A stretch of 45,555 bases of DNA, taken from contig JACSRS010000076.1 in the NCBI GenBank assembly GCA_014879655.1, forward strand, positions 1 through 45,555. Reading direction: 5' to 3'. The notes beneath the pieces were generated by a model. That model was not told the origin of the DNA. It made no database searches and saw only the letters and a program-made list of their open reading frames with translations. Made by a program: the position numbers and the translations under genes. The stretch comes from Burkholderiaceae bacterium. Lineage in GTDB: Bacteria; Pseudomonadota; Gammaproteobacteria; Burkholderiales; Burkholderiaceae_C. Position 1 is the first letter of the stretch. Each line of letters starts with the position of its first letter. Of this stretch, positions 13,710 to 30,387 are shown piece after piece.

Positions 13710-13835
13710 AAGTCCCATTGGGGGCGGTGTGTGGATAAAACCACATATAGAAGACTGAGGCTGTTGGCGGGTGGCTCCGGACGGGTGTCTTGGGCTAGAC
13801 TGCCAAAGTCTTTGTAGTAGACAACTTTTTTCACT

Positions 13836-13841
13836 AAGGAG
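13836..13841 (+). promoter_or_regulatory. strong ribosome binding site of the S-layer-like gene
   Basis: AAGGAG lies seven bases before ATG 13849 and fixes that start. Reading the frame further upstream (to 13771) adds residues that do not resemble any secreted protein. The strength of the site fits a very abundant product. Confidence 0.85.
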
Positions 13842-13848
13842 CTTTCAT

Positions 13849-16800
13849 ATGGCTGCTATCAGCACCCCGGATCTGTACAAGGCTTATTTGGCCTACTTTG
13901 GCCGTCCGCCCGACCTCACGGGTCTGGGCTATTTCAGCAACAAGACCGAGGCTGAGGTCATTGCAACGTTCAGCGCCTCGCCCGAGTCGCAAAACCTTTT
14001 CGGCAGCCTGCCGATCCCCCAGCAGATCAACGCGATCTACAACAACCTGTTCAACCGTGATGCAGAGCCGGCCGGTCTGGAGTACTGGACGACCCAGCTG
14101 ACGCTCGGCAACATCACGCTGGCCGAGGCCTCGATGGCCATCCTGCGTGGCGCGCAAGGCACCGATGCTCAGACCGTTACCGCCAAGTACAACGCCCAGG
14201 TGGCTTTCACCGATGCGCTCGACACCTCGGCCGAAATCGCTGCCTACTCCGGCACCGAAGCCGCCGATGACGGCCGCGCCTTCCTGGCCACGGTTGACTA
14301 CCAGAACATCCCGACCAATGCCGAAGTGCAGGCCGCTGTTCTGGTCGCCACCACGCCCAACCCGCCCGTCACGCCGGTCCCCACGCTGGACATCGCTGTC
14401 AGCTCGACCACGGTCAACGAAGGCGGCACGGTCGTCTTCACGGTCGTGACGACCAACGTCGCCGCCGGCACCACCTATGTCTACAACCTCGACGGCGTCA
14501 GCGCAGCTGACATCGTCGGCGGCAACCTGTCCGGCACCGTCGTCATCGACAGCACCGGCAAGGGCTACGTCACCGTGGGCGTTACCAGCGACCTGCTGAC
14601 CGAAGGCAACGAAACCATGACGATGGTGATCGGCTCGTCGACGTCTGTTGGCGTCACGATCGAAGACACCTCGGTCACCCCGCCGCCGCCCCCGGTTGTG
14701 GACCAGACCTACGTGCTCACCGTCAACGCTGACGTCATCCACGCCGGTGCTGGCAACGACACGTTCGTTGGCACGCAGAACACCCTGCAGCTCGGCGACA
14801 GCCTGTTCGGCGGCGAAGGCAACGACACGCTCGACCTGTCCATCAGCGGCTCTGGTTCCTACGTCAACGGCTTTGCCACCGACAGCGTCGAGACCGTCAA
14901 GGTCAAGTCCCTGTCCACCTCGGACAGCACACTCGATGTGTCCGACGTCAAAGGCCCCGTGACCCTGATGTCCAACGAAACCGACGGTGCCTCGCTGACC
15001 TTCCATGACGTTCAGAGCATCAACGCCACCAACATCGTGGTGGTTGATACCGACGAATCGCATACGTTCCAGTACGACGTGGGCAACTCGGCCTCGAACA
15101 ACGACGTCGCTGAAATCGCCGTGCAGGAAATGCGCGCCGGCAGTTTCATCACGCTTGAAAACAACGGCACACCGGGCCAGTCGTTCGTCGACCAGATCAT
15201 TCTGGACTCCGCCGTTCGCGCCGATCCGGGCGTGCAGCCGTCCAACACGTTCAAGAACGACATGGGCCTGCGCGCCGGTGACGACCTCGACACGCTGACC
15301 ATCGTTGGCGACGCCGACCTCCTGATCACCAACGTTCTGGACCAGAACATCTCCCTGGTCGACGCCCACGCCCACACCGGTGCGCAAGGGGTCAACAGCG
15401 AAGTGCAGAACATCATCGGCAACCATTGGGAGCTGGAGCTGGACATGTCCAACTCCAACGATGGTCAGCCTTTCGCGGCCGACGGCGTTGCTGAAGTGAC
15501 CGTTCGCGGCTCGCAAGGCGACAACAAGATCGACTTCGGCAGCAACAACGGCCACGATGCAGGCACCACCCACAACAACAAGATCGTTGACTTCAACGGT
15601 GGCGCGGGCGTGCAAGACATCGACTCGTCCGCGTTCGTCGGCAACGACTGGCTGCGCACGGGTTCCGGCGAAGCTTCCGTCAATTCCGGTGCCGGCAACG
15701 ACACCGTGCTGACCGGCGCGCTGAACGACGTCGTCATCGCAGGTGCGGGCAACGACATGCTGGTTGACCAGGGTTCCACCTCCAACCTGTTCAACCACGG
15801 CAACATCTACAACCCCTGGTACTCGTCCAATGGCAACCAGTTCGACCTCGGCGCTGGCAACGACAACCTGACGGTTCTGGGCAACTCCAACAACACCGTG
15901 TCCGCCGGTGACGGCAACGACGTCATCAGCGTCGCGGGCAGCGTTGTCGACGGTTTTGCAAACGACCAGGTGTTCACCAACGTCATCAGCAACTACGACC
16001 TGGGCAACGGCAACGACCAGATCACCATCGGTGACAGCTATCGTGAAGGCCAGATTGACTTCTGGGCCGGCTCGCGCGGCAGCAACTACGTTTCTGGCGG
16101 TGCCGGCAACGACGCTATCAGCATCTTCCGTGATGGTGACCAGACCGTGATGGCCGGTGAAGGCAACGACGTTGTCCGCATCATCCAGGACGAGAACCAG
16201 TACAGCAGCGACCACTTTGATGGCACCACCCGCGACGGCAACCACTACGTGGACCTCGGCGACGGCAACGACAACCTGTTGATCACCGGCCGCAGCAACA
16301 CGCTGCTGACCACCGTCGTCATCGGCGGTTCCGGCAACGACGTCGTGCGCATCGACCAGGACCATGAGCTGAACGCCGACCTCGGCACGGGCAACGACTC
16401 GCTGCAACTGCGTGCCGAAGACCTGCAGAGCGACGACACCATCGACGGTGGCGCAGGCTATGACACCATCATCCTGAGCAACACCACCTACGGCGTGCAA
16501 ACCGGCCAGGTGCTGGCTTCCGAGACCCGCAAGGTCTCGCACGTTGAGCAGTTCAACCTGCTCGACGCCGGCATCGTGCTGACCGTCACCGACAACCTGG
16601 TGGACACCGCCGACAACAAGACGCTGACGGTCGACACCACCGGTTCGTCGTACAACGGCGATGTCACGCTGCCCATCGCGCTGCCCAATACCCTGTTCCA
16701 GGGCATGCTGTGGAACACCTACAGCCTGTGGGATGTGACCAACAACCTCACCAGCAACCTGGTGGCCGAGCGCACGCCGAACCCGGATCCGCTGCTGGCT

Positions 16801-19800
16801 GGCAACTCCAGCAACGACCTGGTGTTCTTCGTCTACGCACCCAACGTCTTCGTCCCCGCGCAAACCGTGGACCTGACCGCGCTGAACACTGTCGACTACA
16901 CCTTCGTCCTGACCGGTGGTGGTCTGCGTGACATCGTGATCGTCGACGAAGACGCACTGTCCACCGACCTGTACCTCAACTTTGACGGCGGCGCTGGCGC
17001 TGGCGGCGCTGACGCTCGCGAAGGCTGGGCTTTCACCGACACCCTGCAAGTGGTGAACGGTGCCAACATGACCGTGCAGGATCTGGAAAATGTGTTTGAC
17101 ATGGAGATCATCGATCTGGTCTCCACGCTGAACGCTTCCCAGACCTGGAACGTCGAGCTCGACAACCACGTCATCAACCAGCCCACCGGCACCAACGTGC
17201 TGACCATTCGTGTTGACCCGACCGTGCCCGCTGGCAGCAACGTTTACGTCACCTTCTCTGAAGACGACGTCAACCTCGCCACCAACGACGTCATCGTCGA
17301 GCGCAACGCCAACGTCAACGTGTACGTGGTGATCCGTGACTCCAACGGCAACGAAGTGGTGCACCTGGTCACCGAAGACCAGTACAACCGCACAGTCGAT
17401 GCATTCGAGTTCGCCAACACCGGCTTCCACGTCATCGTGAACAGCCAGCTGCTCTTCACCACGAGCTCCGACAACCTGTTTGGCAATGACGGCAGCAACA
17501 CCTTCATCGCCACCTCGATCAATCAGGTGCAGAACTCCGACATCGTCGACGGCAACGTGTACGTCATCGATCCGGACAACGTCACTGTGGTTCCGGGCGA
17601 TGACTCGTCGGACGACTTCGACACGGTTGAACTGCAGTTCGCAGTCGCGAACCAGAACGACAACCTGTGGGAGCAACTGAACGACGTGTCGATCTGGGAC
17701 GTTGAGCAAATCCGCTTCAACACCCAGAACCAGGTGCAGATGAACGGTCTGGGCGGTGAAGACTTCGCGATTGGCCTGGAATACCTGACCACCGGCATCG
17801 CCAGCGATCGCCTGCTCAACATGGAGCGCAGCGGCTTGGTGTTCACGCTGAACGCCGGCAACGACTACCTGTCGGTGAGCGATTACGGCGACTTCCAGCG
17901 CGGTTCGTTCTACGCCACGGTTTCCGGCGGTGAAGGCCGTGACACGGTCGTCGGTTCGATGGGCAATGACGTCCTGACGCTGGGTCTGGTGGAAGCGGTC
18001 AACGCCGGTTCCGGCGACGACTCCGTGTACTTCTCGACCGGCGGCACGATGCTGGAAAACAGCATTGGCGGCAACGACGGCGACGTCAGCGTCGACATGG
18101 GCATGGGCGAAGACTACCTGCAACTCGACAACAACGGTACCAACGGCACCGTGACGGTCTGGAACGCTGAAGACATCCAAGGCGGCGCCGGCATGGACAC
18201 CATCGTGGCCTATATCAATGCAAGCTCGACCTACGGTTCGGGTACGGCTTCGATGGAAATCTACGGCGCCAATGACGATGACCACATTACGGCCTTCGGC
18301 ACCTCCGGCACGTCTGTCTCTGTCTGGGGCGAGAACGGCAACGACACCATCAATGTCGATACCTCCAACCCGGGCAGCGGCTATGGTTTCTCGAACTATG
18401 TCTATGTCAGCGGTGGCAGCGGCAACGACGTGATCAATGTCGGTTCCTCTTCGCCCGCCTATGTTGAAGTCGACGGCGACAACGGCAATGACGTGATCAA
18501 CGTCTTTGCCAGCCAGTTCGCAGATGTTGACGGCGGCAGCGACAACGACGTGATCTCGGTCACCGTCGGCACCACCATCTGGGGCAACAGCGTCGACGCT
18601 GACGCATCGGTTGGCGGCGGCAGTGGCAACGATGACCTCACCGTCAGGGTGCAGGACGACGCAACCGTCTGGGGTGGCAGCGGTAACGACGTCATCTCCG
18701 TGACCTCTGACAACGACATCGCCAACGGTTCGGGTTCTGCTGGTTCCTACGTCTACGGCGAAGCGGGCAATGACACCATCAGCGTCTTCAGCCCCAACGA
18801 CACCGACACGCCTTTCACCATCACCGGTGGCCAGGGCAATGACCTGATCCAGTTGGGCGGCAACCGCAACGGCGTTGACACGCTGATGTTCGGCAACATT
18901 GCGTACTCTGCCTATCAGGTGGCGAGCAATGACCAGGGTCTGGATCACATCACCGGCTTCCAGTTCGAGAATTCGATCGTCGGTGGTGACCCGGTGCCTC
19001 TGACGCAAGACTTCATGAACTTCAGCGCGTTCCTGGGCAACACCATCAACACCGCGAATGAAATCGTGGTCGCTGGTACCTGGACCCGTGGCACGACCGA
19101 AGTGGCCAACACGGCAGCCGGCAACTCCATCGTGGTTCTGTCGGCACCTGCTGGCAGCAACTACGTGCTGGATGCCAATGACTTCAGCGTCAACCTGCCC
19201 AACACCATTCAGCTGAACGATAACAGTCGTGCAGTCGTGGTGGTGGGTCAGGACCAGACCGGCAGCGGTTCGGGCATCTCTGACTTTGACGTGTACTACG
19301 TCCAGGACATCGATTCCGGCGCTGGCCAGACCTGGGCCGTGACCAAGGTTGCAGATGTGCAGGGCGCCACGCGCGTCGGCATCAGCGAAGTGCTCGACAA
19401 CCTGACCGCCGGCCTGGCCGACGCAATGGTGGTCACGCCGACCAACACGACCATCAACGCCGGTAACGACCTGAACGACCTGACGGTCGTCTGGACGGAC
19501 CACGTGACGACGGGCGTATCGGTGATCAACTTCGATCCGCAGATCTCGGGCGCCCCCAACCACGAAGACATGTTCGACTTCTTCGCTGGAAGCAACAACT
19601 TCTTCGATGCGGGCACCCTGTTCTTTGACGTGAACGTGAACTCCAACACGGTTTACCTGATCAACAACGATGCAAACCCTGTTGGTGATGTGTCGACGTC
19701 AGGCGCCGGTGGTGACAAGTTCGTGATTTCGAACGGTGACGACGCGATCCTGTTGGCGGCTTCCAGCAATGGCAGCACCACGGCCAACGTCTACCACATG

Positions 19801-19908
19801 TTCGACAGCGACCCGTCGGGTGGTGTTACGGCTTCCCTGGTGTTGATCGGTACCGTCAGCCTCACCGGTGGAAACTTCGGTGACCTGGGTTCAGCCAACT
19901 TCGTCTGA
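13849..19908 (+). CDS. giant RTX/DUF4214 protein, probable surface-layer (S-layer) protein secreted by type I system
   Basis: 2019 residues, acidic, no N-terminal signal peptide and apparently almost free of cysteine. Residues about 5-125 hold two DUF4214-type half-repeats (LYKAYLAYFGRPPDLTGLGY and INAIYNNLFNRDAEPAGLEY). Residues about 180-285 resemble a Calx-beta/Ig-like sandwich (VNEGGTVVFTVVTTN, LLTEGNETMTM). Calcium-binding RTX nonapeptides (GGxGNDxUx, e.g. AGAGNDTFVG, GAGNDTVLTG, SGNDVISV) cluster near residues 300-330, 605-880 and 1340-1675. The last 340 residues lack RTX repeats and end hydrophobically (LTGGNFGDLGSANFV), as expected for an uncleaved C-terminal type I signal. Codons are strongly C-ending, a sign of high expression. 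Its own promoter, strong RBS and terminator, plus a downstream exporter and O-antigen genes, mirror Caulobacter RsaA. A large adhesin is the main alternative. Confidence 0.87.
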   Translation: MAAISTPDLYKAYLAYFGRPPDLTGLGYFSNKTEAEVIATFSASPESQNLFGSLPIPQQINAIYNNLFNRDAEPAGLEYWTTQLTLGNITLAEASMAILRGAQGTDAQTVTAKYNAQVAFTDALDTSAEIAAYSGTEAADDGRAFLATVDYQNIPTNAEVQAAVLVATTPNPPVTPVPTLDIAVSSTTVNEGGTVVFTVVTTNVAAGTTYVYNLDGVSAADIVGGNLSGTVVIDSTGKGYVTVGVTSDLLTEGNETMTMVIGSSTSVGVTIEDTSVTPPPPPVVDQTYVLTVNADVIHAGAGNDTFVGTQNTLQLGDSLFGGEGNDTLDLSISGSGSYVNGFATDSVETVKVKSLSTSDSTLDVSDVKGPVTLMSNETDGASLTFHDVQSINATNIVVVDTDESHTFQYDVGNSASNNDVAEIAVQEMRAGSFITLENNGTPGQSFVDQIILDSAVRADPGVQPSNTFKNDMGLRAGDDLDTLTIVGDADLLITNVLDQNISLVDAHAHTGAQGVNSEVQNIIGNHWELELDMSNSNDGQPFAADGVAEVTVRGSQGDNKIDFGSNNGHDAGTTHNNKIVDFNGGAGVQDIDSSAFVGNDWLRTGSGEASVNSGAGNDTVLTGALNDVVIAGAGNDMLVDQGSTSNLFNHGNIYNPWYSSNGNQFDLGAGNDNLTVLGNSNNTVSAGDGNDVISVAGSVVDGFANDQVFTNVISNYDLGNGNDQITIGDSYREGQIDFWAGSRGSNYVSGGAGNDAISIFRDGDQTVMAGEGNDVVRIIQDENQYSSDHFDGTTRDGNHYVDLGDGNDNLLITGRSNTLLTTVVIGGSGNDVVRIDQDHELNADLGTGNDSLQLRAEDLQSDDTIDGGAGYDTIILSNTTYGVQTGQVLASETRKVSHVEQFNLLDAGIVLTVTDNLVDTADNKTLTVDTTGSSYNGDVTLPIALPNTLFQGMLWNTYSLWDVTNNLTSNLVAERTPNPDPLLAGNSSNDLVFFVYAPNVFVPAQTVDLTALNTVDYTFVLTGGGLRDIVIVDEDALSTDLYLNFDGGAGAGGADAREGWAFTDTLQVVNGANMTVQDLENVFDMEIIDLVSTLNASQTWNVELDNHVINQPTGTNVLTIRVDPTVPAGSNVYVTFSEDDVNLATNDVIVERNANVNVYVVIRDSNGNEVVHLVTEDQYNRTVDAFEFANTGFHVIVNSQLLFTTSSDNLFGNDGSNTFIATSINQVQNSDIVDGNVYVIDPDNVTVVPGDDSSDDFDTVELQFAVANQNDNLWEQLNDVSIWDVEQIRFNTQNQVQMNGLGGEDFAIGLEYLTTGIASDRLLNMERSGLVFTLNAGNDYLSVSDYGDFQRGSFYATVSGGEGRDTVVGSMGNDVLTLGLVEAVNAGSGDDSVYFSTGGTMLENSIGGNDGDVSVDMGMGEDYLQLDNNGTNGTVTVWNAEDIQGGAGMDTIVAYINASSTYGSGTASMEIYGANDDDHITAFGTSGTSVSVWGENGNDTINVDTSNPGSGYGFSNYVYVSGGSGNDVINVGSSSPAYVEVDGDNGNDVINVFASQFADVDGGSDNDVISVTVGTTIWGNSVDADASVGGGSGNDDLTVRVQDDATVWGGSGNDVISVTSDNDIANGSGSAGSYVYGEAGNDTISVFSPNDTDTPFTITGGQGNDLIQLGGNRNGVDTLMFGNIAYSAYQVASNDQGLDHITGFQFENSIVGGDPVPLTQDFMNFSAFLGNTINTANEIVVAGTWTRGTTEVANTAAGNSIVVLSAPAGSNYVLDANDFSVNLPNTIQLNDNSRAVVVVGQDQTGSGSGISDFDVYYVQDIDSGAGQTWAVTKVADVQGATRVGISEVLDNLTAGLADAMVVTPTNTTINAGNDLNDLTVVWTDHVTTGVSVINFDPQISGAPNHEDMFDFFAGSNNFFDAGTLFFDVNVNSNTVYLINNDANPVGDVSTSGAGGDKFVISNGDDAILLAASSNGSTTANVYHMFDSDPSGGVTASLVLIGTVSLTGGNFGDLGSANFV

Positions 19909-19981: not shown

Positions 19982-20021
19982 GCCCCCACCTCTCACAAAG
20001 AGGTGGGGGCTGATTTTTTTT
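19982..20021 (+). terminator. rho-independent terminator of the S-layer-like gene
   Basis: A perfect 12-bp stem (arm GCCCCCACCTCT at 19982-19993, loop CACAA, complementary arm 19999-20010) is followed by TGA and eight Ts (20014-20021). It is the strongest terminator in the window. The small protein gene begins 14 bases after it, so that gene depends on read-through or a separate promoter. Confidence 0.95.
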
Positions 20022-20034
20022 GAAAGTGAAAACC

Positions 20035-20283
20035 ATGCCCAACATCAAGATTGACGGACAAGACTACGACGTCGACAAGCTGCCCGAAGAGGCTCGCAAG
20101 CGCCTGGAAATGCTCGCGTTTGTCGACCGACGAATCCAGGAACTCCAGCGTGAAATGATGGCCATGCAGACGGCGCGCAATGCCTATGCGGGATCCTTGA
20201 AGGAGGTGATGCCGGCGCCAGCCGCTGCAGCACCTGCAGGCTTGCCGCCCGGCGACACGATCCGGTTCAACACGCCCGGTTGA
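20035..20283 (+). CDS. small coiled-coil protein (DUF6447-like)
   Basis: 82 residues. Residues 1-20 (MPNIKIDGQDYDVDKLPEEA) form a short beta segment of the type seen in a small family I recall as DUF6447. Residues 20-60 are a charged helix likely to form a coiled coil (VDRRIQELQREMMAMQTARN), and the tail is Ala/Pro-rich. Function is unknown. ATG 20035 is chosen because the upstream in-frame TTG (20020) falls in the terminator's T-run. The gene sits directly behind the S-layer-like gene and its terminator, so a small amount of read-through would express it at a low fixed ratio. A role as secretion chaperone, assembly factor or regulator for the giant protein is a guess from position only. Confidence 0.72.
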   Translation: MPNIKIDGQDYDVDKLPEEARKRLEMLAFVDRRIQELQREMMAMQTARNAYAGSLKEVMPAPAAAAPAGLPPGDTIRFNTPG

Positions 20284-23418: not shown

Positions 23419-23457
23419 TTCTTGCTGCCGGACAAAATATCAGCCGCGTTTCAAAAA

Positions 23458-23496
23458 TTCATATAGGAAGCGGCTACACTTCGGTTCCTATATGAA
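23458..23496. repeat. perfect inverted repeat overlapping the TnpB-like start codon
   Basis: TTCATATAGGAA (23458-23469) and TTCCTATATGAA (23485-23496) are perfect complements with a 15-base centre; the A at 23457 and T at 23497 extend the arms to 13. The ATG start (23492-23494) lies inside the right arm and an AGGAAG lies in the left arm and loop edge. As RNA it would fold into a hairpin that hides the start codon; as DNA it would be a wide operator. A relic of a transposon-end hairpin is a third option. No other ribosome site is visible before the ATG. Confidence 0.75.
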
Positions 23497-24124
23497 TATT
23501 GTGATTCGCCTGCCGCTGAACACCAACGCCGAGCAGCACGCCCGCCTGCTGGCGTTGCAGCAGGCGTTTGCGCAGGTCTGCAACGCCATCACACCGGTTG
23601 TCTCGCAAACGCGGGTGTGGAACCGGGTGGCCCTGCACCACATGTTGTACAAGCAGCTGCGCGAACAATTCCCGGCGCTGGGCTCGCAACTGGTGTGCAA
23701 CGCGATCTACGCCGTCAGCCGGGTCAGCCGTTCGGTCTACCAGCATCCGGCCAGCCCGTTCAACCTGTCGCGCCTGCCGGCGGGCGCTTTGCCCACCATG
23801 CGTTTTGTCGACACCTCGCCGGTCTATTTCGACCGGCACACGCTCAGTTTTCGCGACGGCAAGCTGTCGCTGTTCACGCTCGACGGCCGCATGCGCTTCG
23901 ACCTGACGCTCAAACCCGCTGAAGAAGCCGCGTTTCGCGAAGGCAAATTGCGCGAGGTCATGCTGTCGCGCGAGGCGGGTGGGCGTTTTGTGCTGCGCTT
24001 CACGTTGGGCGACCCGCAAGCGCCCGATGCTGACGAGCCCGAAGAAGCGGCGCTGGCCGAAAAAACCGCTGCGCCATCCGGCAGCGAGATCCCTGAATAT
24101 GTCCTGGTCGAGGAAGTTGAATGA
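23492..24124 (+). CDS. TnpB-like N-terminal-half protein lacking the RuvC nuclease, first gene of the type I secretion operon
   Basis: 210 residues. Three blocks fit the N-terminal (WED/REC) half of IS200/IS605 TnpB proteins: residues 5-35 (RLPLNTNAEQHARLLALQQA, then FAQVCNAI), residues 41-82 (WNRVALHHMLYKQLREQFPA, then LGSQLVCNAIYAVSRVSRS) and residues 111-172 (VYFDRHTLSFRDGKLSLFTL, GR, then REVML...GRFVLRFTL). In TnpB the last block is followed by RuvC-I with its catalytic Asp. Here the chain instead ends in a 38-residue acidic tail (about 12 Asp/Glu), so no RuvC, zinc finger or nuclease is present. No tnpA is nearby. Its stop overlaps the ABC gene start (ATGA), a sign of functional coupling. 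Probable exapted RNA- or DNA-binding module; actual role unknown. Confidence 0.75.
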   Translation: MNIVIRLPLNTNAEQHARLLALQQAFAQVCNAITPVVSQTRVWNRVALHHMLYKQLREQFPALGSQLVCNAIYAVSRVSRSVYQHPASPFNLSRLPAGALPTMRFVDTSPVYFDRHTLSFRDGKLSLFTLDGRMRFDLTLKPAEEAAFREGKLREVMLSREAGGRFVLRFTLGDPQAPDADEPEEAALAEKTAAPSGSEIPEYVLVEEVE

Positions 24125-25878
24125 AGCCCCAAGCCCCACCGTCTGAATTGCGTGACGCGGTCACCCCGCTGCGCCCGTACTTCCGCAAAGCCATCATCTT
24201 CAGTCTGGTCGCCAGCCTGCTGCTGCTGGCGCCCACTGTCTACATGCTGGAGGTCTACGACCGTGTGGTCAACAGCCGCAGCCACATGACGCTGGCCATG
24301 CTGACCCTGCTGGTGCTGGGTGCCTACGTGGTGATGGAGGTGCTTGACTGGGCCCGCGGCGAGGTGATGGCGGAGGCCGGCCGCAAGCTGGACCAGAAGC
24401 TGTCGCAACGGACATTCCACGCGGTGTTCGACGCCAACCTCAAACGCCAGCCCGGTGGTGGCGTGCAGCCGTTCAACGACTTGCGCGTGCTGCGCGACTT
24501 TCTCACCAGCCCCGTGCTGGCAGGGGCCATGGAGGCGCCAACCGCCTTTGTGTTTCTGATCATCGTGTTTTCCATCAACCCGGCGCTGGGCTGGGCGGCC
24601 ACCGTGGGCGCCATCGTGGTGGCGGCGCTGGCCTGGCTGAACGAAAAGGCCACGCTGGAGCCCCTGCAGGAAGCCAACAAGACCAATGCGGCGGCTCAGT
24701 TGTATGTGGATGGCACGCTTCGAAATGCCGAAGTGATCGAGTCCATGGGCATGCTGCGCAACATCCACCGCCGCTGGGTGGCGCGCCAGCGCGAGTTTCT
24801 GGGACTGCAGGCCGTCGCGTCCGACCGCGGCGCCAGCTACCAGTCGATCTCCAAATACGTCCAGCTGACGCTGAACTCGGCCATGCTGGGCATGGGTGTG
24901 TGGTTGCAGCTCAAAGGGCATTTCACGGGCTCGGGCGGCATGATGATCGTCGCCGCCACACTGGGCGGCCGCATCCTGGCGCCCATCGTGCAGATCGTCT
25001 CGCAGTGGCGCACGGTGGTTACCGCGCGGGATGCCTGGACCCGCATGGACGGGTTCCTCGCCGCGCATCCGCCAAAGCCGGATGCCATGCTGCTGCCGCC
25101 GCCCCGCGGTGCGCTGCTGGTCGAAAGCCTGGTGGCCGGTGCGCCGGGCAACAACGCAGCCATCATCAGGAACGTGGCGTTCGCCCTGCCACCCGGCGAG
25201 GTGCTGGCCGTGGTCGGGCCGTCGGCGTCGGGCAAGACCACGCTGGCCCGCCTGCTGGTGGGGCTTTGGCCGGCCGCTTCGGGCAAGGTCCGCCTTGACG
25301 GTGCCGATGTCTTTACCTGGGACAAGACTGCGCTCGGGCCGTACATCGGCTACCTGCCGCAAGGCGTCGAACTGTTCGAAGGCACGCTGGCCGAGAACAT
25401 CGCGCGCTTCGGCGACGTCGACATGAAGAAGGTGCAGGCCGCTGCCGCCGCCGTGGGTCTGCACGAACTGATCGAGTCGCTGCCACAGGGTTATCAGAGC
25501 CCGGTCGGTCGCGACGGCTCCAGCCTGTCGGGTGGCCAGCGTCAGCGCGTGGCGCTGGCCCGGGCCATCTACGGTGACCCGGTGTTCGTGGTGCTCGACG
25601 AACCCAATTCCAGCCTCGACGAATCCGGCGACGCTGCGCTCGCGCAGGCCATCACCCTGATGAAGAGCCGGGGCACCTCCTTTGTGGTGATGACGCACCG
25701 CACCAGCGTGCTGGCCGTTGCCGACAAGATGCTGGTGCTGCGCGACGGCGTGCAACAGGCGTTCGGCCCGCGCGACGAAGTGCTGGCAGCCCTGGCCAAG
25801 ATGGCCCAGCAGGCCCAGCAACCCGCGCCGCGCCGCGATGGTCCCGCGCCCGCAAGCCGCGTCCCCGTTGCCGTCTGA
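24121..25878 (+). CDS. type I secretion ABC transporter (PrtD-like), first copy
   Basis: 585-residue fused permease-ATPase of the inner membrane. There is no N-terminal C39 peptidase domain, as in PrtD/RsaD exporters of RTX proteins. Membrane domain spans about residues 20-310 (TVYMLEVYDRVVNSRSHMTL). The ATPase has Walker A GPSASGKTT (about 366-374), signature LSGGQRQRVALARA (about 469), Walker B VFVVLDEP and switch MTHR, so all catalytic motifs are intact. Start codon overlaps the TnpB-like stop; a second, paralogous ABC gene follows after 24 bases. Expected to recognise the C-terminal signal of the giant RTX protein and energise its export. Confidence 0.94.
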   Translation: MKPQAPPSELRDAVTPLRPYFRKAIIFSLVASLLLLAPTVYMLEVYDRVVNSRSHMTLAMLTLLVLGAYVVMEVLDWARGEVMAEAGRKLDQKLSQRTFHAVFDANLKRQPGGGVQPFNDLRVLRDFLTSPVLAGAMEAPTAFVFLIIVFSINPALGWAATVGAIVVAALAWLNEKATLEPLQEANKTNAAAQLYVDGTLRNAEVIESMGMLRNIHRRWVARQREFLGLQAVASDRGASYQSISKYVQLTLNSAMLGMGVWLQLKGHFTGSGGMMIVAATLGGRILAPIVQIVSQWRTVVTARDAWTRMDGFLAAHPPKPDAMLLPPPRGALLVESLVAGAPGNNAAIIRNVAFALPPGEVLAVVGPSASGKTTLARLLVGLWPAASGKVRLDGADVFTWDKTALGPYIGYLPQGVELFEGTLAENIARFGDVDMKKVQAAAAAVGLHELIESLPQGYQSPVGRDGSSLSGGQRQRVALARAIYGDPVFVVLDEPNSSLDESGDAALAQAITLMKSRGTSFVVMTHRTSVLAVADKMLVLRDGVQQAFGPRDEVLAALAKMAQQAQQPAPRRDGPAPASRVPVAV

Positions 25879-25902: not shown

Positions 25903-27636
25903 ATGAAAAAACCGGCCATTTTTGCCCGCAGTGAACTGGGACAGGTTCTGTGGGCCTTCCGGCGCGAGTTTCTCGTCGTCGGCATCTTCAGCATGGTTGC
26001 CAACGTGCTGATGCTCACCCCCACGCTCTACATGCTGCAGGTGTTCGACCGCGTGATGATCAGCCAGAGTGAAATGACACTGCTGGTGGTCACGCTGGTG
26101 ATGCTGTTCCTGCTGGCGGTGATGTCGTTTGCCGAGTGGTCGCGCACCCGGGTGCTGGTTCGCGCCAGCGTGCGGCTCGATGCAATGCTCAGCACGCGGG
26201 TGTTCAACGCGGCCTTCGAGTCGCATCTGGCGCAGACCGGTGCCAGCCCGTCGCGCGCCTTTGCCGACCTGAACGAAGTTCGCCAGTTTCTGACCGGACA
26301 GGGCATTTTTGCCTTTTTCGACACGCCCTGGACACCGATCTATATCGGCGTGCTGTTCCTGATGCACCCGGCGCTGGGCTTTCTGTCAATCTTCTTCGCG
26401 CTGGTTCAGGGCGCGCTGGCCTGGTTCGGTCACCGCAAGACCGTGGAGCCGGCGGTGAAGGCCATGCAGTCGGGCATGGAAACGCAGACCTACCTGCATG
26501 GCAAGCTGCGCAACTCCGAGGTGCTGGAGTCGATGGGCATGGTCAGCAATCTGCGTCCCCATTGGCACGCGCGCCACCAGACTTATCAGGACGATCATGC
26601 AAAAGCGCAGCGCCTGACCCAGAAGCTCACAGCCTGGAGCAAATTCGTGCGCTATACCCAGCAGTCGCTGGTACTGGGAGCCGGCGCCTTGCTGGTGGTG
26701 GACGGCCAGCTGACACCGGGCGCGATGATTGCCTCCAACGTGCTGATGACGCGTGCACTGGCGCCGATCGACCAGCTGGTCGGCTCGCTGCGCGGATGGG
26801 TGAGCGCACGCGCGGCCTACGGCCGGCTGGAGGAGCTGCTGGGGTTGTATCCGGAGCGCGATGCGGCGCTGATGCGGGTTCCGCCCACCGGTGCACTGAC
26901 GCTGCGCAATGTGATGGCCACGGTGCCGGGGCGCGATGCGCCGATTCTCAAGGGCATCAATTTTGAGGTTGCCCCCGGCACGCTGACGGTGGTGCTCGGC
27001 CCGTCCGGATCGGGCAAGTCGACGCTGGCGCGTACGATTCTGGGCATCTGGCCCGGGGTTTCGGGCGAGGTACTGCTTGACGAGCGGCCGATCGGTGGCT
27101 GGGATCGCAACGAACTGGGCCCGTATCTGGGCTACCTGCCGCAGGACATTGAACTGTTTGAAGGCTCGATTGCCGAAAACATCTCGCGCTTCGCCGAAGT
27201 CGATTCCGGCAAGGTGATTGCCGCCGCCAAGGCCGCCGGCCTGCACGAGATGATCCTGCGCTTCCCGAAAGGCTACGACATGCCGATCGGCGAGGCCGGC
27301 AACCTGCTGTCAGGCGGCCAGCGCCAGCGCCTGGGACTGGCGCGCGCGCTGTATGGCGATCCGGCGCTGGTGGTGCTGGACGAGCCGAACGCGAACCTCG
27401 ACGACGCCGGCGACGCCGCACTGATGAAGGCCGTCGTCAGCCTGAAGGCAGCGGGCAAGACCGTTTTCCTGATCACCCACCGCCCGGGCGTGCTGGCTGC
27501 GGCTGACCGGGTGCTCTTTCTGCGCGACGGCTACCAGGTCGCGTTTGGCACGCCCCCGGCGGTGATGGCGGCACTGAAAGCCGAGGCGGCCGGTCACCCG
27601 GATACCCCACCACCGGCGAATGCGCTGCCCGCCTGA
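25903..27636 (+). CDS. type I secretion ABC transporter (PrtD-like), second copy
   Basis: 577 residues, paralogous to the protein just upstream: compare TLYMLQVFDRVMISQSEMTL with the matching stretch there, and the near-identical GPYLGYLPQDIELFEGSIAEN region. It has its own complete ATPase set: GPSGSGKST (about 367-375), LSGGQRQRLGLARALYGDP, VVLDEP and LITHR. Both copies being intact suggests a heterodimeric exporter, or two exporters sharing one adaptor and channel. Other RTX substrates outside the window cannot be excluded. Spacing of 24 bases upstream and 54 downstream keeps it within the operon. Confidence 0.94.
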   Translation: MKKPAIFARSELGQVLWAFRREFLVVGIFSMVANVLMLTPTLYMLQVFDRVMISQSEMTLLVVTLVMLFLLAVMSFAEWSRTRVLVRASVRLDAMLSTRVFNAAFESHLAQTGASPSRAFADLNEVRQFLTGQGIFAFFDTPWTPIYIGVLFLMHPALGFLSIFFALVQGALAWFGHRKTVEPAVKAMQSGMETQTYLHGKLRNSEVLESMGMVSNLRPHWHARHQTYQDDHAKAQRLTQKLTAWSKFVRYTQQSLVLGAGALLVVDGQLTPGAMIASNVLMTRALAPIDQLVGSLRGWVSARAAYGRLEELLGLYPERDAALMRVPPTGALTLRNVMATVPGRDAPILKGINFEVAPGTLTVVLGPSGSGKSTLARTILGIWPGVSGEVLLDERPIGGWDRNELGPYLGYLPQDIELFEGSIAENISRFAEVDSGKVIAAAKAAGLHEMILRFPKGYDMPIGEAGNLLSGGQRQRLGLARALYGDPALVVLDEPNANLDDAGDAALMKAVVSLKAAGKTVFLITHRPGVLAAADRVLFLRDGYQVAFGTPPAVMAALKAEAAGHPDTPPPANALPA

Positions 27637-27690: not shown

Positions 27691-29046
27691 ATGAGTACTG
27701 AAGAAAACCAGATTGTCAAAGCCTCGTCACCCGACGCCGGCAAAGCACCCCTCAAGGTCGTCGGCGACAGCGCGAGTGCCGCGCGCATCGGCCTGTGGGT
27801 GCTGGGGTTGGGTTTTGGCGGCTTCCTGCTGTGGGCCGCGCTGGCACCGCTGGACGAAGGCGTGCCCACCCAGGGCATGGTGACCATCGATACCAAGCGC
27901 AAGACGGTGCAGCACCAGGTGGGCGGCATCGTGAAGGAGGTGCGCGTCGGGGAGGGCGACCAGGTCAAGGCCGGCCAGGTGCTGATTCGCCTGGATGACG
28001 CCACCGCCAGCGCCAGCTACCAGGCGGTGCGCCAGCGTTACCTGAGCATGCGGGCGATGCAGGACCGGCTGCTGGCCGAGCTGGCCGGCCCGACCAAGGC
28101 CATCGTTTTCCATCCGGACCTGCAGGCGGCCGCGTCCGACCCGCTGATCCGCAGGCAGATGGACACGCAGGAACAGTTGCTGGCTTCTCGCCGCGCGTCC
28201 CTGCGGGCCGACTTGCAGGTGCTCGAGGAATCCATTCAGGGCCAGCAGGGCATGCTGCAATCCTACGAGAGCGTGATCAAGTTTCGCCAGAGCCAGCTGG
28301 CGCTGCTGAGCGAGGAACTGACGAACACCCGGGAACTGGTCAAGGAAGGTTACGCACCGCGCAACCGGCAGCTGGAGCTCGAGCGCATGGTGGCCGAGTC
28401 GTCGGCGGCAATCGCCGAACTCAGGGGCAACATCATCCGGGCGCAGCGCGCGATTCTGGAACTGAAACAACGTACCAACCTGCGCCAGCAGGAGTACCGC
28501 AAGGAAATCGAAAGCCAGCTGGCCGATGTCACGCGGGAAGCGCAGTCCGACGAAGAAAAAGTCACCGCCCTGCGCGAAGAACTGGAGCGGGTGGACATCA
28601 AGGCGCCCGTCGGCGGGCAGGTCGTGGGCCTGATGGTGCAGACGGTGGGTGGCGTCATCGGCCCGGGCCAGAAGATCATGGATATCGTGCCCGTGGATGA
28701 GCCGCTGCTGCTGGAGACCCGCATACCCCCGCACCTGATCGACAAGGTGCATGCGGGCCTGGAGGCGGACATCCGGTTCACCGCGTTCTCGCACTCGCCC
28801 CAGCTGGTGGTGGAAGGCAAGGTGGCGTCCGTTTCGGGCGATCTGCTGACCGAACCGCAGACCGGCGCCACCTACTTCCTGGCTCGGGTGGCGGTGACGC
28901 CCGAGGGCCTGAAGAAGCTCGGCCGCCACCAGATGCAGCCGGGCATGCCGGCGGAGGTGGTGATCAAGACGGGCGAGAGAACGCTGCTGACCTACCTGCT
29001 GCATCCGCTGACCAAGCGGATGGCGGCTTCACTGAAAGAGGAGTGA
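27691..29046 (+). CDS. type I secretion membrane fusion protein (HlyD/PrtE family)
   Basis: 451 residues. One N-terminal membrane helix (about 31-52, GLWVLGLGFGGFLLWAALAP) is followed by the adaptor half-lipoyl motif VQHQVGGIVKEVRVGEGDQV. A long periplasmic coiled-coil hairpin (about 110-290), the second half-lipoyl motif RVDIKAPVGGQVVGL and a beta-barrel domain follow. The near-C-terminal GMPAEVVIKTGERTLLTYLL is a signature of HlyD proteins of type I systems. It bridges the ABC transporters to the TolC-like channel, whose gene starts three bases after this stop. Confidence 0.95.
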   Translation: MSTEENQIVKASSPDAGKAPLKVVGDSASAARIGLWVLGLGFGGFLLWAALAPLDEGVPTQGMVTIDTKRKTVQHQVGGIVKEVRVGEGDQVKAGQVLIRLDDATASASYQAVRQRYLSMRAMQDRLLAELAGPTKAIVFHPDLQAAASDPLIRRQMDTQEQLLASRRASLRADLQVLEESIQGQQGMLQSYESVIKFRQSQLALLSEELTNTRELVKEGYAPRNRQLELERMVAESSAAIAELRGNIIRAQRAILELKQRTNLRQQEYRKEIESQLADVTREAQSDEEKVTALREELERVDIKAPVGGQVVGLMVQTVGGVIGPGQKIMDIVPVDEPLLLETRIPPHLIDKVHAGLEADIRFTAFSHSPQLVVEGKVASVSGDLLTEPQTGATYFLARVAVTPEGLKKLGRHQMQPGMPAEVVIKTGERTLLTYLLHPLTKRMAASLKEE

Positions 29047-29049
29047 GCC

Positions 29050-30387
29050 ATGCTGCAAAAGCACAAGCGCATGCTGTGGCTGGCCGCCGGACTGGCCGCC
29101 GCCACCCCGGCCTGGTCGCTGGATCTGCTGCAGGCCTATGAAACCGCGCTGGCGCAGGATGCGACCGTGCGCGCTGCCCGGGCAGCAGCCGACGCTGGCC
29201 GCGAACGCCTGCCCCAGGCGCGGGCGCAACTTCTGCCCAACCTGGCTTACAGCGGCCAGCGCAACGTCAACGACCTGACACGCGATCAGCCCAACAGCCT
29301 GGGGGTTCCCACGGTTTTCAAGGACCAGTACAACAGCCTGAATCAGACGCTCACGCTGCGCCAGCCGCTGTTTCGCCTGTCGCTCTGGGCCAACTACCAG
29401 CAGGCGCAGTACGTGGTGGACGACGTCAACGCCGTGCTTGAGCGCGAGCTGAAGAACCTCTCGGTCCGGGTGGCGACCGCCTACATGGAGGCTCTGCTGG
29501 CCAAGGACCAGCTGGACCTGGTGCTGGCGCAGAAGGTCTTTGTGACGACCCAGCTCGATGTGGCGAAAAAGACCTTCGCGGCCGGTTCGGGCACGCGCAC
29601 CGACATTGACGAGGCGCGAGCCCGGCTCGACATGAACCTGGCCCAGGAACTCGAAGCGCGGCAGAACCTGGAATTCACCCGTCGCCAGCTGGAAGTGCTG
29701 ATTTCCAGACCGGTTGACCAGATCGAGCCGTTGAACGTGAAGCGCATGCCCCTGCTGGACCCACAGCCCGCGTTGCTGTCGGACTGGATCGACCGGGCCG
29801 AACAGGCCAATCCGGACATTGTCTCGCTGCGCGCGCGGGCGCAAGCGGCCCGGCTGGAGGTCAACAAGGCGCAGGGGGGCCATTTCCCGACGGTCGACGC
29901 CGTCGCCCAGTGGGTCAACAGTTCCAGCGAAAACGTCAACACGCCCAATTCCAGCTACACGAACAAGACGCTGGGCATCCAGGTCTCGGTACCCTTGTTC
30001 TCGGGCGGCTACGTCAGCTCCACCGTGCGCCAGGCGGTGGCCGAGCAGCAAAGGGCCGACGAGACCCTCGAAGCGGCCCGGCTTGATCTGGGCGTCAGGG
30101 TTCACAAGGAGTTTCGCAATGTGACCGAGGGAATTGCCAAAGTCCGTGCGCTGGAGCAGGCGGTGGCGTCGGCCGAGCTGCTGGCCAGGTCCACCCGCAA
30201 GTCCTTCGAGGCAGGCAGCCGCACGCTGTCGGATGTGCTGAACACCGAGCAGCAAAAACAGCTGACCTTGCGTGACCTTGCGCAGGCCCGCTATCTGTAC
30301 ATGAGCGCCCGCATCCGGCTGTTTGCGCTGGCCGGAGAAGATCCGCGCACCGGTATCGAGCAGACCAATGCCTGGCTGGGCGAATGA
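29050..30387 (+). CDS. TolC-family outer-membrane channel of the type I secretion system
   Basis: 445 residues with a signal peptide (MLWLAAGLAAATPAWS, cleaved near residue 23) and the two-fold repeated helical layout of TolC proteins: LLQAYETALAQDATVRAARA early, and the second-half counterpart ANPDIVSLRARAQAARLEV. The strand segment SVPLFSGGYVSSTVRQA is the usual TolC loop-strand before the last long helix. It completes the export conduit and ends the operon. A GC-rich gap of 131 bases separates it from argB. Confidence 0.95.
   Translation: MLQKHKRMLWLAAGLAAATPAWSLDLLQAYETALAQDATVRAARAAADAGRERLPQARAQLLPNLAYSGQRNVNDLTRDQPNSLGVPTVFKDQYNSLNQTLTLRQPLFRLSLWANYQQAQYVVDDVNAVLERELKNLSVRVATAYMEALLAKDQLDLVLAQKVFVTTQLDVAKKTFAAGSGTRTDIDEARARLDMNLAQELEARQNLEFTRRQLEVLISRPVDQIEPLNVKRMPLLDPQPALLSDWIDRAEQANPDIVSLRARAQAARLEVNKAQGGHFPTVDAVAQWVNSSSENVNTPNSSYTNKTLGIQVSVPLFSGGYVSSTVRQAVAEQQRADETLEAARLDLGVRVHKEFRNVTEGIAKVRALEQAVASAELLARSTRKSFEAGSRTLSDVLNTEQQKQLTLRDLAQARYLYMSARIRLFALAGEDPRTGIEQTNAWLGE

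Follow-up and report, generated by a model that had tools for sequence, protein, structure and literature searches.

A TnpB-derived recognition lobe without the nuclease half as a candidate autoregulator of a type I secretion operon in Burkholderiaceae

What does a protein that resembles only the front half of a transposon nuclease do directly in front of a type I secretion exporter? This question is raised by P0001, a 210-residue protein encoded in a 45,555-nucleotide stretch of DNA from a Burkholderiaceae bacterium (contig JACSRS010000076.1 of assembly GCA_014879655.1; the whole stretch is referred to as the window), whose gene overlaps with that of the first ABC transporter (ABC1) of the exporter. 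A first-pass annotation had described a RuvC-less derivative of TnpB acting as an RNA- or DNA-binding module that regulates or assists S-layer export. The analysis below suggests, with a probability of roughly 0.6, that P0001 is a domesticated, guide-free, sequence-specific DNA-binding autoregulator of its type I secretion operon.

23492..24124, + strand: TnpB-derived WED-REC-WED protein P0001, 210 aa, without a RuvC or TNB domain

Residues 1-175 of P0001 aligned to the recognition lobe of TnpB from IS200/IS605 elements, and the remaining residues (176-210) formed an acidic tail that terminates in a conserved P-x-Y-x-x-V motif. Among 100 related genomes, 39% identity over residues 6-158 (E 1.5e-22) was found with a full-length IS605 TnpB of the same order, of which the genome G078 carries 7 copies and which contains the Pfam OrfB_IS605 and Cas12f1-like TNB domains. 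When a profile of the family was aligned with eight TnpBs by hhalign, family columns 1-175 matched TnpB residues 3-173 (probability 99.9%, E 1.9e-31), ending just short of RuvC-I. An AlphaFold2 model of P0001, built from 9 sequences (mean predicted local distance difference test score (pLDDT) of 87; predicted template modeling score of 0.83), matched 21 PDB chains at E≤1e-3 in Foldseek, all of which were Cas12f, ISDra2 TnpB, Cas12k, or Cas12n, and none had a classical transcription-factor fold. The top matches were Cas12f (best E 6.2e-6; template modeling score (TM) of 0.59 by query length), and ISDra2 TnpB followed with E 1.2e-4, TM 0.50, and a root mean square deviation of 7.3. In ISDra2 TnpB, WED comprises residues 1-12 and 117-176, with REC in between (PMC10097598). 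The profile match, the fold matches, and these domain limits together indicate that P0001 consists of the recognition lobe and a short tail, in which residues 182-197 had pLDDT values below 50 and were followed by the conserved P-x-Y/F-x-x-V terminus. This origin was visible by profile-profile, fold, and whole-genome comparisons, while curated profiles and sequence searches of PDB were unhelpful: P0001 had no match in Pfam or NCBIfam, Pfam gave just scattered weak matches in single family members, PHROGs gave no useful match, and the PDB sequence search returned unrelated HSP90 noise alone (E≥1.3).

The nuclease half is absent. The reading frame stops after residue 210, leaving out the RuvC domain with its catalytic Asp; the TNB zinc finger (PF07282) was not found by Pfam in P0001 or anywhere in the host genome (a draft, 96% complete); and neither tnpA nor transposon ends were present at the locus. 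The initial description of an N-terminal TnpB half that ends before RuvC-I, lacks the zinc finger and second half, and is capped by an acidic tail was thus borne out in each of these respects.

Two viral contigs may be mentioned here. One (IMGVR_UViG_3300023313_000004, L099:4950-5417) encodes a stand-alone 155-aa protein that is similar to the TnpB recognition lobe (29% identity), has no RuvC, and adjoins a 235-aa protein; the nuclease lobe may have been lost here a second time, independently, and no second relative was found among the viral contigs. The other (MT839988.1, "Bacteriophage sp." from human faeces, L101:1700-2980) carries an IS605 tnpB that by eye is nearly identical to that of G078, and its phage label may therefore reflect a transposon-bearing contig.

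The gene is not confined to the host. Ten of the 100 related genomes gave a match: the host itself, seven with 53-63% identical proteins, G078 (its TnpB), and G027, whose weak and partial match (E 2e-4) was left uncounted. Among 399 genomes of the family, 41 matched at E≤0.001 and 37 held the strong form at 38 loci, corresponding to 26 of 141 genera when counted from the match table; the 38 exclude five of the 43 match rows, namely G163 (partial) and G101, G027, G233, and the second row of G356 (none better than E 3.7e-8). At the order level, the gene was found in G060, G857, G896, G901, G997, and G1026, and in 369 class-level genomes the single strong match beyond the host was G733. Nearly every carrier genome had the gene once. 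A tree was built from 44 family members and 8 TnpBs; in it, the family formed one group (support 99/98), and the TnpBs of G811 and Methylomarinovum tepidoasis were placed next to this group (96/79, not a starred branch); several TnpB branches were long and the program issued a warning. P0001 was 36-37% identical over the lobe to the TnpBs of G811 and the M. tepidoasis plasmid, and other members reached 52% identity with that of G811. The ratio of nonsynonymous to synonymous substitution rates (dN/dS) was 0.07-0.32 in 12 of 13 pairs, indicating purifying selection; the thirteenth pair was not computable, and some dS values were close to saturation.

The position of the gene was also fixed. The first 15 homologues found were all 5' of ABC1-ABC2-HlyD-TolC, and the ABC1 gene was located directly downstream on the same strand, with a gap of -7 to 162 bp, in all 44 non-redundant loci (51 with fetched DNA minus duplicates; the count covers neither the strong loci of G127, G208, G249, G266, G273, G366, and G432 nor the decayed copy L118, which lies away from the exporter). 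At L111, L112, and L114, tolC preceded the gene instead, and in G733 only one ABC gene was seen. The ATGA overlap, with ABC1 starting at 24121, had previously been taken as the mark of an integrated operon member; this agrees with the homologues examined, which are stand-alone operon genes rather than parts of intact TnpB elements. Of the two outcomes that would have contradicted the first-pass annotation, an unrelated fold and homologues confined to intact TnpB elements, neither was observed. A single old domestication of an IS200/IS605 TnpB, with loss of the whole nuclease lobe (RuvC and zinc finger), best explains these observations.

The first-pass annotation had missed a dedicated operator, TTCATATAGGA, at the start of the gene, which is arranged as follows.

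23457..23469, + strand: left operator arm ATTCATATAGGAA (core TTCATATAGGA, 23458-23468), located 5' of the predicted -10 box; read directly and conserved in relatives
23475..23480, + strand: predicted -10 box TACACT, between the arms and 11 nt before the ATG
23485..23497, - strand: right operator arm, an inverse copy (core, 23486-23496) that overlaps both the ATG and the predicted start of transcription

Read along the strand, ATTCATATAGGAA is followed by 15 nt containing TACACT and then by TTCCTATATGAAT, so that the second arm covers the ATG. Exactly two copies of TTCATATAGGA were found in the 3.7-Mb genome, both at this site as an inverted repeat, and the reversed-pattern control gave 0. Among the 31 loci whose right arm lies at the ATG, 30 had a TANNNT box with its end 6-11 nt 5' of the start codon, compared with 56 of 1323 control windows; the mRNA is therefore predicted to start at or just before the ATG, being nearly leaderless, and a bound right arm would cover the transcription start. 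TTCATATAGGAA is symmetric in five of its six base pairs, and such a near-palindrome would suit a dimer; three divergent loci contain the perfect palindrome TTCATATATGAA.

The motif tracked the gene across relatives. The 399 family genomes contained 101 exact matches to TTCATATAGGA, 61 of which were at the promoters of 34 of the 38 strong loci (two or more exact copies in 25 of them), while the remaining 40 were single matches over 38 genomes with no pair within 100 nt; paired copies were found only at loci of the TnpB-derived gene. Of the 43 loci scanned (L021, cut by a contig end, was left out of the motif counts), 40 had the core TTCATATA no more than 130 nt from the start of the gene. Where tolC comes first, two exact copies (L111 and L114) or the 8-bp core alone (L112, at which chance weighs more) were upstream of tolC, and the motif therefore appears to follow the operon promoter. 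On the other hand, the motif was absent, with up to one mismatch allowed, from 11 exporter loci without the TnpB-derived gene (of 13 such genomes; G007 and G088 were not fetched). A conserved operator at the promoter of its own operon, specific to the presence of the gene, is a feature of autoregulatory transcription factors and was found here, and the position of this operator over the -10 box and start fits the predicted repression. Copy number and orientation varied among the loci (inverted, direct, divergent, triple, or single), which fits DNA sites rather than an RNA hairpin; an mRNA hairpin was ruled out by this variation and by the predicted -10 box between the arms. A regulon was likewise ruled out, since the host has just two exact sites and the 4 extra matches in 3 of the 37 gene-bearing genomes were not above the background of 40 scattered in 399.

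Several single loci deserve a separate description. G402 contains a second, decayed copy of the gene away from the exporter (L118:3354-3968, - strand), together with the operator, in which similarity extends only to about residue 130. In G009 (L026:9045-9998), an ATG inside the operator would add an N-terminal extension of approximately 80 residues. Upstream of the exporter in the gene-less G044 (L120:4392-8498) are instead an open reading frame that appears subtilase-like by eye and another of 136 aa.

What, then, would P0001 recognize in this operator? IS605 elements insert beside a sequence that is later read by TnpB as the transposon-adjacent motif (TAM). Six of the 7 copies in G078 had a complete left end and all six abutted TTCAT, as did two of three copies in G909 (52% identical in TnpB; the third was masked), and TTCAT is identical to the first five bases of TTCATATAGGA. 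In ISDra2 TnpB, the cleft between WED and REC accommodates the TAM duplex, while WED and RuvC together hold the RNA scaffold (PMC10097598); a protein that lost RuvC would therefore still have its DNA cleft but would be deprived of much of its RNA-binding site. We tentatively propose, at somewhat less than even odds, that P0001 is a protein-only transcription factor made from the WED-REC lobe, the part corresponding to that which holds the TAM duplex in TnpB, and that it reads the ancestral TAM, extended from TTCAT to TTCATATAGGA, as its operator; it would then represent, with the same reserve, a new class of DNA-binding regulator whose specificity was inherited from a transposon target motif. 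P0001 would bind the sites flanking the -10 box, possibly with a dimer at each near-palindrome, and, lying over the transcription and translation starts, would block RNA polymerase until relieved by some signal, perhaps sensed through the tail. Such a regulator is probably guide-free. Concerning the initial proposal of an "RNA- or DNA-binding" module that "regulates or assists", the module itself stood, and the private operator suggests a narrower role for it, namely control of its own operon through DNA binding and not a part in export itself.

Comparisons with known systems place P0001 between exapted nucleases and ordinary repressors. It shares with IS200/IS605 TnpB the WED-REC-WED lobe and, in the case of two related elements, the TTCAT insertion-site pentamer, and differs from it in the absence of RuvC, the TNB zinc finger, tnpA, and transposon ends and in that its gene is an operon member; no omega RNA was found with Rfam, which may lack models for such RNAs. 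The nearest exaptations are TldR and Cas12. TldR, a repressor of flagellin promoters that still has a guide RNA and a RuvC, albeit a mutated one (PMC13418256), is likewise a TnpB derivative tied to a non-transposon operon and promoter, with a likely role in transcription control; its defining mutated RuvC is not found in P0001, which lacks the nuclease lobe, has no guide that we found, and has its only exact genomic motif sites at the promoter of its own operon. Cas12f and Cas12m are two-lobe, CRISPR-RNA-guided proteins, a build not found in P0001 in spite of Cas12f giving its top fold matches. In Cas12m, DNA binding alone can silence (PMC10442227, PMC11013384). The location of P0001 is similar to that of autorepressors of efflux and secretion systems, an early operon gene with an operator over its own promoter, whereas its DNA-reading domain is a TnpB/Cas12f recognition lobe. 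Such autorepressors are usually encoded by the first gene of the operon they control.

Several points weigh against a DNA-binding autoregulator of this kind. Binding and repression by P0001 are predictions, and the motif may instead serve a different regulator that was passed on together with the operon. An exact 11-mer is missing from four of the 38 family loci (G418, G024, G025, and G266); of the first three, which were looked at more closely, G418 carries a copy with one mismatch, while the core persists in G024 and G025. Among the gene-less exporter loci, G044 (ABC1 66% identical) alone is a close comparison; the remaining ten are more distant, most of them single-ABC systems. At L114 a gap of approximately 0.7 kb separates tolC from the TnpB-derived gene. 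The dyad requires A as the twelfth base, which only 31 of the 65 exact sites have, and the distance between arm starts ranges from 24 to 44 nt (inverted) and from 14 to 39 nt (direct), so that cooperative binding is not evident. As for the TAM, it was deduced from insertion sites; single copies in G811 and G987 suggest GTCAT and TTCAC by eye, Methylomarinovum gave no TAM, and the nearest TnpBs gave no multi-copy TAM. The link to TTCAT is post hoc, a given 5-mer occurring anywhere in an 11-mer on either strand with a chance of approximately 1.4% (by hand), and the REC region of ISDra2 TnpB was visibly misaligned by MAFFT, leaving the TAM residues unmappable.

These points leave room for other explanations, of which two concern the motif. 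It may be the operator of an unrelated regulator, with P0001 acting otherwise in secretion, for example by its tail binding the cargo mRNA or the exporter. The association might arise simply because gene and promoter are inherited together, and the tail does end in a conserved peptide; however, the motif tracks the TnpB-derived gene rather than the exporter, the fold is that of a TAM-binding lobe, and only the TnpB-derived gene and the exporter genes recurred in nearly all loci when nine window genes were tested. The decayed second copy in G402 also has the motif away from an exporter, although by duplication. We regard this explanation as unlikely. A further step down in probability, and improbable in our judgment, is an RNA-guided regulator without RuvC, a stripped-down TldR in which an unlinked short guide RNA sits on the WED-REC lobe and the operator combines TTCAT as the TAM with ATAGGA as a 6-nt seed target. 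The motif indeed splits into a 5-nt TAM and exactly 6 conserved bases, mutations in seed nucleotides 1-6 of TldR relieve repression (PMC13418256), and the WED domain retains part of the RNA-contact surface (PMC10097598). RuvC, which provides half of the scaffold-binding surface, is nevertheless lost, and no zinc-finger TnpB protein was found in the draft genome to supply RNA in trans. The 3' end of the P0001 gene abuts or overlaps the ABC gene, and Rfam, which may not cover omega RNAs, gave no match above threshold and one below it near the gene. Outside the operator, ATAGGA occurred 3 times versus 28 expected in up to 3.4 kb around 43 loci, indicating no linked guide starting with ATAGGA, if a guide begins right after TTCAT; beyond these 3 chance-like matches, no TldR-type adjacent guide next to a TAM was found there. 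Upstream sequences were not conserved beyond the promoter in three same-genus pairs and one cross-genus pair (they were conserved in two very close pairs), and the near-palindromic site, with its perfect form in three loci, suits recognition by a protein.

A decaying transposon remnant without function would explain why the second TnpB half is gone and why no curated family searched (Pfam, NCBIfam) covers P0001. Open frames in one group spanning 26 genera, purifying selection, fixed synteny, and the conserved operator leave this with almost no probability at all. We therefore return to the DNA-binding autoregulator and to the operon that it would control.

24121..25878, + strand: type I secretion ABC transporter 1 (ABC1), in ATGA overlap with the TnpB-derived gene
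25903..27636, + strand: type I secretion ABC transporter 2 (ABC2), approximately 44% identical to ABC1
27691..29046, + strand: HlyD-family membrane fusion protein, by domain match
29050..30387, + strand: TolC-like outer-membrane factor (OEP, E 7.4e-57)
13834..19908, + strand: 2024-aa DUF4214/RTX-repeat protein, candidate exporter cargo (domains by search)

The type I secretion set of ABC exporter, HlyD fusion protein, and outer-membrane factor is complete and recurs in relatives; ABC1 is presumably PrtD/RsaD-like. Located 5' of the P0001 gene are a divergent AMP-binding enzyme, a glycosyltransferase, and the 2024-aa protein, which by analogy with type I secretion in general may be the cargo of the exporter. 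The S-layer label that had been given to the cargo is putative; the domains found in the 2024-aa protein were DUF4214 and RTX repeats. An 87-aa protein near the exporter (window positions 20020-20283) has a 39% identical relative near the exporter of the distant genome G733 (L110:4936-5178), and is a possible further conserved partner.

Among the literature matches listed, with most subscription papers outside the scope of the search, there was no RuvC-less TnpB regulator and no TnpB in a type I secretion operon; "truncated TnpB" occurs in the title of a genome-editing paper (PMC10951260). Work on TnpB and Cas12 generally treats them as complete RNA-guided machines. To our knowledge, the known exaptations (Cas12 and TldR) keep their guide RNA. 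That a recognition lobe stands alone, is widely conserved, and has an operator of its own suggests that the reading of a TAM or protospacer-adjacent motif (PAM) can become an independent, guide-free transcription factor, and whether WED-REC binds specific DNA without RNA may now be asked with one 210-residue protein and a promoter of approximately 60 bp. If the proposal is correct, P0001 would be a natural minimal PAM-reading domain, and its operon would show how an export system comes under the control of a transposon relic.
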